Origin: Chloroflexota bacterium
Lineage (GTDB): Bacteria; Chloroflexota; Dehalococcoidia; Lucifugimonadales; UBA3495
Direction: 5' to 3'
Length of the DNA stretch: 64,000 nt
NCBI GenBank assembly: GCA_028875055.1
Contig: JAPPGG010000044.1
Location: 86,032 to 150,031, forward strand
Shown here: one piece after another, positions 32,004 through 36,441 of the stretch
How the letters are laid out: the number at the start of each line of letters is the position of its first letter
Position numbering within the stretch: position 1 is the stretch's first letter
Program-made: the position numbers and the translations under genes
The notes under the pieces: model-generated
Database searches by the model: none
Told to the model about the DNA's origin: nothing
Seen by the model: the letters and a program-made list of their open reading frames with translations, nothing else

Positions 32004-32768
32004 TTAGATCAGCGCTTCCGGTGTGAATATTCCGTCCATGTCTTCGGCGGTAGCCCGGTCCTCAGGTGTAACACCCAGGCTGGTCTCCATGAACCAGTAC
32101 ACCTGCTTGAGGTGGTGAGTGCTGTGGCTGATGATGATGTTCAGCAGCTCCACCACGGTTACCTCGCCCCCGTAGTGTGCGGGAACGACGCGGTCGAAGG
32201 CCTCGGTGTTGTCGCTGTTAAGGAAATCCACAATGTCCTGGATGACGCCCTCGGCATATTCTGAGATTTCCTCGGGGGAGTTGACGCCAATCAGCCTTTC
32301 GCGGCAGGCCTGCATGTCGTCGGTAGTCATGCTGCCCGTCCGGTGGCTGATGTAGGCCAGTTCCGGGAATGACATAATGTGGACAATGGTGTCCCGCAGG
32401 GTTTCGGGCCGCCAGGCGACCGGTTCCTTCAGCTGGTCGGGGCTTAGCTGCATGGTGGCACGGATGGCCGCATGAAGTATCCGGTCGTACTTGTCAGCCA
32501 GCCAGCTGGTCCTGCCGGACAAATCCACCTGGGCGTCCAGCTTTAGCGAGGCAATCAGTTTGCGGGGGAAGTAGCCGATGATGATCTCATAGTCATCAAT
32601 CACGGTCACCGGGGCCGATTTCACCCCTCGACTTTCCAGGTACTGCTGGGCCGCGGGTTCGCTGGCGATGTCGTGGTGCTCATACTGAACACCGTTGGAC
32701 GTCAGGAACTCTTCCAACGTCCGGCAGCTGAATCAACCAGGGTTGGTGTAAACGTGAACGCTTGTCAT
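32004..32768 (-). CDS. Glutaredoxin-DinB fusion, predicted selenoprotein (UGA at codon 12)
   Basis: 254 residues when the UGA at 32735-32733 is read as selenocysteine. Seen directly: ATG 32768 with GGAG eight bases upstream, then VHVYTNPG-U-FSC, giving a U-x-x-C redox site where glutaredoxins have C-x-x-C. Downstream, in the same frame, EFLTSNGVQYEHHDI, the cis-Pro block VKSAPVTVI and a C-terminal IIIGYFPRKL complete a glutaredoxin/NrdH-like fold (about 1-80). The rest (about 95-254) is a DinB four-helix domain with metal-ligand His in DTIVHIMSF and IIISHSTHHLKQVYWF. Without recoding, the only open frame starts after the active site, which makes no sense for the fold. A strong hairpin begins 10 nt after the UGA. 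DinB enzymes often use low-molecular-weight thiols, so a thiol-dependent transferase is possible. First gene of a leftward unit with the esterase. Confidence 0.85.
32697..32722 (-). promoter_or_regulatory. Candidate SECIS hairpin for the glutaredoxin-DinB UGA
   Basis: Read leftward: GGACGT, T, GGAA, loop GAG, TTCC, TG, ACGTCC. The six outer and four inner pairs are perfect. It starts 10 nt after the UGA, with the tip about 21-25 nt away, within the range of bacterial SECIS elements. The loop does not show an unambiguous GU start, so the match is structural. Confidence 0.5.
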
Positions 32769-35318: not shown

Positions 35319-35660
35319 GTGAATGAACTAAACCAGCTTCCCTCCGAATCCGATCCGGCTACCCTGGAGGCAATTCATGGGTTGTTCCAGGAAGCCGTTG
35401 CCGACGATTCTTCCCTCTCTCTTCTGAGGGGCTTCAAGGTGGACTTTTCCGGAAATCCGGACTTCCACAAAGTTTACCTGGCAGTCCGGTGCCACTGCGG
35501 CACTGCCGGTCTCATCAGCGTTGAGGTCGCCATGGACAAGACGTTTCCCCAAGTGAGGGAAGCTATGCCCAGCCTTCTCGAAAACGTTCAGATCAAGGCC
35601 GCCATGTTCAGGAATATGTCCTGCGAAATGCACACTCGAATGAGACAAGGTAAGATATAA
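35319..35660 (+). CDS. Conserved-looking hypothetical protein upstream of the selenoprotein FTR
   Basis: 113 residues, unrecognised. Seen: acidic N-terminus, FKVDFSGNPDFHKVYLAVRC followed by HCGTAGLISVEV, and a helical C-terminal MPSLLENVQIKAAMFRNMSC. The three Cys (CHC and one late) and the position 82 bp before the FTR gene make it a candidate partner. It does not resemble the SH3-like FTR variable subunit. GTG 35319 has no strong ribosome-binding site, so the start is uncertain; it reads to a TAA at 35660. Confidence 0.6.
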   Translation: MNELNQLPSESDPATLEAIHGLFQEAVADDSSLSLLRGFKVDFSGNPDFHKVYLAVRCHCGTAGLISVEVAMDKTFPQVREAMPSLLENVQIKAAMFRNMSCEMHTRMRQGKI

Positions 35661-35742: not shown

Positions 35743-36162
35743 TTGCAGCGAAAATTGACCTTTGAACAGGCCCTGAAGGGGGCCAAGGCCTTCTCAGAAA
35801 AATATGTGGAGCGCGGACCTTACGAATTTTTCCCGGAGCCGGAGGTAGTCGAGGTGGTACAGCAGGGGCTGGCCGAAAACCAGGTTAACCACGGTTACCG
35901 CTACTGCCCTTGAATGCCCCTGAGCGGCGATCCCGTTGAGGACCGCAAAAAGATCTGCCCCTGCGACCGGCACCACGAAGACATTAAGCGGGACGGCTTT
36001 TGCATTTGAATGTTCTTCGTAAGCGAAGAGTTTCTTCGCAAGTATGAACAGGGCGAGGACTTTGTCCAGACCATTGATGAAGCGGTTAAGCCCGGAGAAG
36101 GCCTGTTTGACCAGGACTACCAGTCCAAGGCCGACTTCAAGGGTTCCCAGGAAAGCTCCTAG
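35743..36162 (+). CDS. Ferredoxin:thioredoxin reductase catalytic-subunit homologue, predicted double selenoprotein
   Basis: 139 residues when UGAs at 35911-35913 and 36007-36009 are read as selenocysteine. Seen: TTG 35743 after AGGGGGA; FSEKYVERGPYEFFPEPEVV; then YRY-C55-P-U57; 14 residues on, ICPC (C72, C74); 12 on, C87-I-U89-MFF. In known FTR the first, third, fourth and fifth of the six motif cysteines bind the 4Fe-4S cluster and the second and sixth form the redox disulfide. Here exactly those two are UGA and all four cluster ligands are Cys. Bacterial FTR homologues have the same CPC-x14-CPC-(10-12)-CxC spacing. Expected job: pass ferredoxin electrons, one at a time through the cluster, to a thioredoxin or glutaredoxin. 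The next gene encodes such a protein with its own Sec. After U89 the frame stays open to TAG at 36160. Hairpins follow both UGAs. Confidence 0.9.
35924..35946 (+). promoter_or_regulatory. Candidate SECIS hairpin after the first FTR UGA
   Basis: GCGG (35924-35927), bulge CGA, TCC, loop CGTTGA, GGA, CCGC (35943-35946). It begins 11 nt after the UGA with the loop about 21-26 nt away. The loop contains GU and there is a 5' bulge, both found in bacterial SECIS elements. Confidence 0.5.
36023..36039 (+). promoter_or_regulatory. Candidate SECIS hairpin after the second FTR UGA
   Basis: GCGAAG (36023-36028), loop AGTTT, CTTCGC (36034-36039). Perfect 6-bp stem starting 14 nt after the UGA, with a GU in the loop. 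An alternative hairpin closer to the UGA (CTTCG-TAAG-CGAAG) competes with it. Confidence 0.55.
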
Positions 36163-36204: not shown

Positions 36205-36441
36205 ATGGACATCACCGTTTATACTTCCGCTGGTTGAGGCCCCTGCCACATGGTGAAAGTGTATCTTTCACGCAAGGGACTGGAATTCACCGAAAGAAAC
36301 GTATCTGAGGACCAGGACGCGCTGGACTCACTGCTGGCCCTGGGAATCCGGAGCACGCCGGTGACCGTTATCGGCGATCAGAATGTGGTGGGATACAGCC
36401 CGCCCAAGCTGGAAGCCGCCATCAAGGCAGCCAGCGCCTGA
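36205..36441 (+). CDS. Glutaredoxin/thioredoxin-like protein with U-G-P-C site, predicted selenoprotein
   Basis: 78 residues when UGA 36235-36237 is read as selenocysteine (codon 11). Seen: AGGAG nine bases before ATG 36205, DITVYTSAG-U-GPC-HMVKVY, then KGLEFTERNVSEDQDALDSL, the cis-Pro block IRSTPVTVIGDQ and VVGYSPPKLEAAI. The fold is NrdH/glutaredoxin-like while the U-G-P-C site copies the thioredoxin CGPC. Without recoding, the frame would begin at Met-16 and lack the first strand and the active site. The gene lies 42 bp after the FTR gene and is its likely electron acceptor. The gene ends in UGA too, so UGA has both meanings within one mRNA. Confidence 0.9.
36253..36271 (+). promoter_or_regulatory. 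Candidate SECIS hairpin of the UGPC glutaredoxin
   Basis: GTGAAAG (36253-36259), loop TGTAT, CTTTCAC (36265-36271). A perfect 7-bp stem beginning 16 nt after the UGA with GU in the loop, the best SECIS match of the four. Confidence 0.65.

Follow-up and report, generated by a model that had tools for sequence, protein, structure and literature searches.

Known FTR selenoproteins

FTR is the textbook case of disulfide cleavage by a [4Fe-4S] cluster in two one-electron steps; as given in the excerpted text of PMC3838966, one sulfur attacks TRX, while the other acts as the fifth ligand of a cluster iron. Selenium-containing forms have been on record since 2008, when a COG4802-type FTR appeared among the new GOS selenoproteins (PMC2398784). 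The excerpts of that paper count two FTR selenoproteins, one of them with two Sec residues, and describe one FTR read with "two predicted Sec residues exactly corresponding to the two redox-active Cys residues"; the word "operon" is absent from the paper. An FTR selenoprotein with a CxU motif is also listed in the accessible tables of PMC9312934 (2022) and PMC13188914 (2026), in the latter together with NF041072 and two Sec residues. The NCBIfam entry NF041072 is a curated equivalog model with the name "FtrB family double-selenoprotein".

The original prediction for the locus described here named no described FTR of such a kind and left proof of novelty to a search. As a double-Sec FTR was published in 2008 and a curated NCBIfam model exists, this claim to novelty falls, and the two later tables, in their accessible parts, speak against it as well. 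Judged by its sequence, the gene adds one more member to the FtrB double-selenoproteins, a family described before. New here are the conserved cassette neighbours of the gene and a natural series of FTR relatives with one and two UGA codons. The reading that we favour, and hold to be quite probable, is that of an FtrB double-selenoprotein, i.e. an FTR-type disulfide reductase with two predicted Sec residues, which likely feeds electrons to an adjoining predicted seleno-glutaredoxin.

The ftrB gene and its active-site positions

The ftrB gene is located at 35743..36162 on the plus strand of the window, which denotes the whole stretch of 64,000 nucleotides of Chloroflexota DNA that was analysed. 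Its frame of 139 codons starts with TTG, ends with TAG (36160-36162) and contains in-frame UGAs at codon 57 (CPU, 35911..35913) and codon 89 (CIU, 36007..36009), with the middle CPC left intact. The frame, its two UGA codons, the intact CPC and the closing TAG had been described in the original prediction, whose coordinates, length, UGA positions and CPC motif proved exact on re-reading. The assignment to the FTR catalytic chain was borne out by an HMM check, in which the recoded frame scored 80 bits against Pfam FeThRed_B (PF02943, cut-off 22) and 231.9 bits against NCBIfam NF041072 FtrB_double_U (cut-off 160), covering positions 2-121 of the 121 positions of the latter profile. A rubredoxin domain is absent from the window protein: no Cys residue follows codon 89 and Pfam gives FeThRed_B only.

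The six-position Cys framework of FTR is present in this protein as four Cys residues and two UGA codons. When the frame is aligned with structurally solved chains (4tpu, 7pwe, 7bzk, 1dj7), the UGAs face the Cys that closes the first CPC and the one that closes the final CxC, which agrees with the earlier claim that UGA occurs solely at the two redox positions. Conservation and structure alignment make codon 57 the equivalent of the first FTR redox Cys and codon 89 that of the cluster-proximal redox Cys. These positions correspond to the redox-active pair, which in Synechocystis consists of Cys57 and Cys87; the first presumably attacks the partner and the second adjoins the cluster. By analogy with solved FTRs and their residue roles, Cys55, Cys72, Cys74 and Cys87 of FtrB would be the ligands of the [4Fe-4S] cluster. 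The AlphaFold model of FtrB reached a pLDDT of 73, and its active-site region is too weak for distances. All 13 top Foldseek matches of this model were FTR or ferredoxin disulfide reductase chains, at E-values from 1.1e-3 to 1.9e-2 and none at or below 0.001.

The genome that carries the window (98.4% complete) contains one FTR catalytic gene. No match to the FTR variable (alpha) chain (PF02941) was found in this genome, while the control in Synechococcus was positive. An NADPH-type thioredoxin reductase is encoded as well, so that other reduction routes exist.

Selenium states of FTR in the class and the phylum

For an overview of redox-position states, 393 genomes of the window's class were searched. 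An FTR match at E ≤ 0.001 was obtained in 188 of them, and 26 were above the double-Sec cut-off. States were read by motif for the 150 FTR matches listed with their places, weaker matches existing beyond these, and "Sec" in this count means UGA. With the first redox position named first, these 150 class matches comprise 67 Cys/Cys, 57 Cys/Sec, 26 Sec/Sec and no Sec/Cys. A re-check by profile search gave 66, 57 and 26, respectively, for 149 matches, with G008 added as Cys/Cys.

The Cys/Sec proteins fall into a plant-like CHU type (49 matches) and a rubredoxin-fused CYU type (8 matches). Locus L094 and locus L088 are examples of FTRs with a single UGA; the rubredoxin-like domain of the latter, which is of the CYU type, was confirmed by Pfam. 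Behind the UGA of the CHU type there is a separate hairpin, for which two alternative stems occur. Two single-Sec representatives reached no NCBIfam cut-off; in the lone FTR selenoprotein model listed they scored 45 and 51 bits, against the 160 bits needed. With scores so far under the cut-off, genes for single-Sec FTRs may appear in databases cut short or wrongly translated. One locus (L076/L234, genome G025) combines a Sec/Sec FTR with a Cys/Cys FTR of another type, which adjoins it on the other strand.

A survey of 400 genomes of the phylum yielded 30 with a match at 1e-7, including six outside the window's class. One of the six (G406, locus L236, 2641-3492, minus strand) combines UGA at the first redox position with Cys at the second and is fused to two glutaredoxin domains according to Pfam; the other five matches outside the class contained no stop inside the match. 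A rule that Sec never stands alone at the first position is true in 150/150 class matches listed and is broken by L236 outside the class. On account of this exception we do not claim the rule as a law. With the class tally and G406 taken together, each of the four states is represented, and Sec is mostly found on the cluster side.

In a tree of the FTR states, which is unrooted, is built on few columns and leaves out G008, the Sec/Sec proteins form one group (support 96) and Cys/Cys proteins with a CAC motif are nested inside Cys/Sec (support 95). Six state changes are seen in this tree, of which its well-supported branches force only two for Cys/Cys, two for Cys/Sec and one for Sec/Sec. The position of the CAC-type Cys/Cys proteins inside Cys/Sec suggests that Sec has been both gained and lost.

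An adjoining glutaredoxin gene and the conserved cassette

Downstream of ftrB a gene for an NrdH/YruB-like glutaredoxin of 78 residues is located on the same strand (36205..36441). Its CxxC motif is present as UGPC, with UGA at codon 11 (36235..36237) in place of the first Cys; this third UGA of the locus is absent from the original prediction. The protein matches Pfam Glutaredoxin (PF00462) with 51.4 bits (cut-off 22.9) and remains below the cut-offs for NrdH (TIGR02194, 58.1 vs. 85.75 bits) and YruB (TIGR02196, 69.7 vs. 88.55 bits). As none of the NCBIfam models listed for it reaches its cut-off, it is assigned to no named subfamily.

We compared 19 related loci, from MAGs whose names give Chloroflexota, Chloroflexi, Dehalococcoidia or SAR202. 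The glutaredoxin gene lies downstream of ftrB in 19/19 loci, and its UGA is kept in 20/20 sequences including the window. A third gene of the cassette is located upstream of ftrB (35319..35660, plus strand); in its product the motifs CxC and CxxH, a possible Zn site, are invariant. The gene is present in 18 of the 19 loci (not found in L019). When 25 more Sec/Sec loci were viewed with about 1.5 kb on each side, 8 of them had it near ftrB, L068 in opposite orientation. The window copy of this protein has no Pfam match, and its AlphaFold model (orf113) attained a pLDDT of 86.9, yet no fold in the PDB matched it at E ≤ 0.001. A wider neighbourhood is common to the window and loci L009-L012; in the other 15 loci it is mostly different, with the cassette retained.

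A second seleno-glutaredoxin is predicted in the window outside the cassette (32004..32768, minus strand). Here a glutaredoxin with a UFSC motif (UGA at 32733-32735) is fused to a DinB domain, which weakly resembles mycothiol transferase (23.9 bits against a cut-off of 170). The part of the product that is read with table 11 is 97% identical in L011.

The distribution of the cassette glutaredoxin was surveyed in 80 genomes, a close form being defined by 126 bits or more (the next scores were 92 and then 66). Such close forms were present in 11/26 Sec/Sec genomes, 0/25 Cys/Sec genomes, 0/25 Cys/Cys genomes and 0/4 genomes without FTR, and the comparison of 11/26 with 0/54 gives a Fisher p of 7e-7, which ignores kinship. 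All 11 are located within about 1 kb of ftrB (in G298 on the opposite strand). Ten of the 11 genomes belong to the window's order, in which the close form is present in 10/10 Sec/Sec genomes; common descent therefore accounts for part of the link. The glutaredoxin partner is not universal, since 15 of the 26 Sec/Sec genomes are without a close form. In four of these 15, a weaker relative with UGA is encoded elsewhere (45-66 bits), and weaker UGA-bearing glutaredoxins also occur in several Cys/Sec and Cys/Cys genomes. A limited motif pattern, applied to the ftrB neighbourhoods of six of the 15, detected no convincing seleno-redoxin.

Conserved linkage, co-occurrence with the Sec/Sec state, the small number of glutaredoxins in the genome and the existence of FTR-Grx fusions point to the UGPC glutaredoxin as the acceptor of FtrB electrons, which we regard as reasonably likely. 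On a different account the double-Sec FTR is real, the seleno-glutaredoxin is a mere neighbour and the true acceptor is a thioredoxin encoded elsewhere. This would be in line with the absence of the close form from 15/26 Sec/Sec genomes, with the six neighbourhoods in which the limited pattern gave no convincing seleno-redoxin and with a co-occurrence that falls mostly within one order. Nevertheless, we consider it rather unlikely, as 11/11 close forms adjoin ftrB and as, beyond four near relatives, the glutaredoxin is common to the loci whereas the other window neighbours mostly are not. Furthermore, the genome has just three matches to the glutaredoxin family, two of which are found at this locus, and fusions of FTR and Grx are known from 7pwe of Desulfotalea (PDB) and from L236.

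Reading of the UGA codons as selenocysteine

UGA is present at both places in 18/18 relatives that cover both, and none of them has a further UGA where the frame is conserved; the 19th locus, L026, turns into an N gap behind the first UGA and is not in this count. The genome encodes SelA (541.7 bits), SelB (345.2 bits) and SelD (385.5 bits, with one TGA in the gene). Its best tRNA-Sec match scored 67.5 bits and was identified by ARAGORN as tRNA-Sec with the anticodon UCA, and three further, weaker tRNA-Sec matches are above the cut-off. The original prediction had named the residues of clade homologues at positions 57 and 89 and the Sec genes of the genome as checks on its view that the codons specify selenocysteine and are not random nonsense mutations. 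The first check gave UGA at both positions in the 18 relatives that cover them, the second gave SelA, SelB, SelD and tRNA-Sec all above cut-off, and together with the hairpins described below they support that view.

Entries in a protein database differ in how they represent these codons. Among the 16 of 19 hits listed, nine protein predictions (P0002-P0010) have Trp at both Sec positions, which is most simply the code choice of a gene caller (UGA = Trp). Two others (P0014, P0015) terminate at the first UGA. Cys is present at position 57 in the metagenome protein predictions P0011 and P0012, which end before position 89, and Ser at position 57 in one short homologue (P0013), the latter a point against the favoured reading.

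The nine public predictions with Trp are what can be cited for a tryptophan reading of UGA (genetic code 4 or 25), according to which the two positions would hold Trp rather than Sec. However, UGA terminates the window's glutaredoxin, whose orthologues end with TAA or TAG, and also RidA, so there is no wholesale Trp code. In addition, UGA within ftrB and the glutaredoxin gene is confined to Cys positions of the respective families, and the Sec machinery is complete, including the UCA tRNA-Sec. We therefore rejected tryptophan as very improbable. Decay of the gene by two nonsense mutations, for which the two in-frame stops could be taken, is still more improbable and was rejected, because both stops and the protein downstream of them are kept in 18/18 relatives at 66-95% identity, with synonymous change between them. 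On conservation, hairpins, codon choice and Sec machinery, UGA 57 and UGA 89 are predicted to be read as selenocysteine.

Hairpins and codon choice behind the UGA codons

A putative bacterial SECIS element follows each of the three UGA codons of the cassette on the plus strand. The hairpin after UGA 57 (35927..35946) has up to 7 pairs and an apical loop with G at +25. In 37 sequences 95.4% of its cells are paired, without covariation beyond shuffles, and it often differs from the minimum-energy fold. The window copy contains one A-C mismatch and at minimum energy folds into a different hairpin. After UGA 89 a stem of 6 pairs carries the loop AGUUU (36023..36039); here 97.8% of cells are paired in 38 sequences and covariation is weak. 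Locus L076 has a different stem at this place, one register off and still pairing. The putative element behind the glutaredoxin UGA (36253..36271) consists of 7 pairs and the loop UGUAU. The GU-bearing loops after UGA 89 and after the glutaredoxin UGA stand at the usual distance of a bacterial SECIS. At gathering cut-offs, the one Rfam match in the window was a tRNA.

Codon choice is restricted in the same regions. Among 19 ftrB sequences the proportion of same-residue codon differences is 0.135 in codons 94-100, behind UGA 89, the lowest synonymous change of the gene, and about 0.33 in codons 58-69, behind UGA 57, compared to 0.48-0.53 elsewhere. In the glutaredoxin gene, 15.8% of same-residue pairs differ in the hairpin codons vs. 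50.4% further on. This freezing of codons is better evidence for SECIS elements than covariation, which is weak at UGA 89 and missing at UGA 57.

Proposed electron route

The most likely route would lead from ferredoxin to the [4Fe-4S] cluster, on to Sec89/Sec57 and finally to the seleno-glutaredoxin. If FtrB works like the solved FTRs, a cluster bound by Cys55, Cys72, Cys74 and Cys87 would accept single electrons from ferredoxin. Sec89 would adjoin this cluster and Sec57 would attack the active-site selenenyl-sulfide of the partner, and a second electron would then release the reduced partner. The gene linkage suggests that this partner may be the UGPC glutaredoxin. For the active site, the original prediction had proposed a diselenide or selenenyl-based form, which might be more negative or faster.

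A more far-reaching version, which we put forward tentatively, is a wire of three selenium atoms, in which Sec89 would form an Fe-Se bond in an intermediate on the [4Fe-4S] cluster and a dedicated glutaredoxin would receive the electrons of Sec57 at its Sec11. Sec might then have arisen first on the cluster side (Cys/Sec in 57/150 matches listed, in two FTR types) and afterwards at the attacking position (Sec/Sec in 26/150), with Sec/Cys occurring once outside the class.

Comparison with known systems

The natural set of Cys/Cys, Cys/Sec and Sec/Sec proteins and the single Sec/Cys protein makes separate tests of the two redox roles possible, and selenium at the cluster could be used as a label in spectroscopy. 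For the FtrB family, which is reported only from sequence in the literature found, the conserved seleno-glutaredoxin provides a concrete candidate partner.

The closest described proteins are those of NF041072 and the FTR of PMC2398784, which belong to the same family and have Sec at both redox positions in CxU motifs. As far as the excerpts go, there is no difference within the protein itself, and neither a conserved seleno-glutaredoxin neighbour nor an upstream gene with CxC and CxxH is mentioned there.

The cassette glutaredoxin shares its UxxC motif with NrdH/YruB-like redoxins and glutaredoxins (7c10, 4fiw, 1h75) and with the Uxx-star model NF041212. It aligns with 7c10, which is presumably a selenoprotein itself, over residues 2-72 of 78.

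The catalytic chains of plant and cyanobacterial FTR (1dj7, 2puk, 7bzk) have the CPC...CPC...CxC framework and the predicted fold in common with FtrB, at 22-28% identity in the structural matches. In contrast to them, the window gene has UGA for both redox Cys codons, and its genome is without a PF02941 match. The best sequence matches of known structure are 4tpu of Methanosarcina, designated "rubredoxin" in the PDB, and 7pwe, a Grx/FDR fusion of Desulfotalea. Both are Cys/Cys proteins with an extra fused domain, whereas FtrB of the window has two UGA codons and no rubredoxin domain. Grx and FTR are joined in a single protein in 7pwe, while in the window Grx is encoded by a separate gene.
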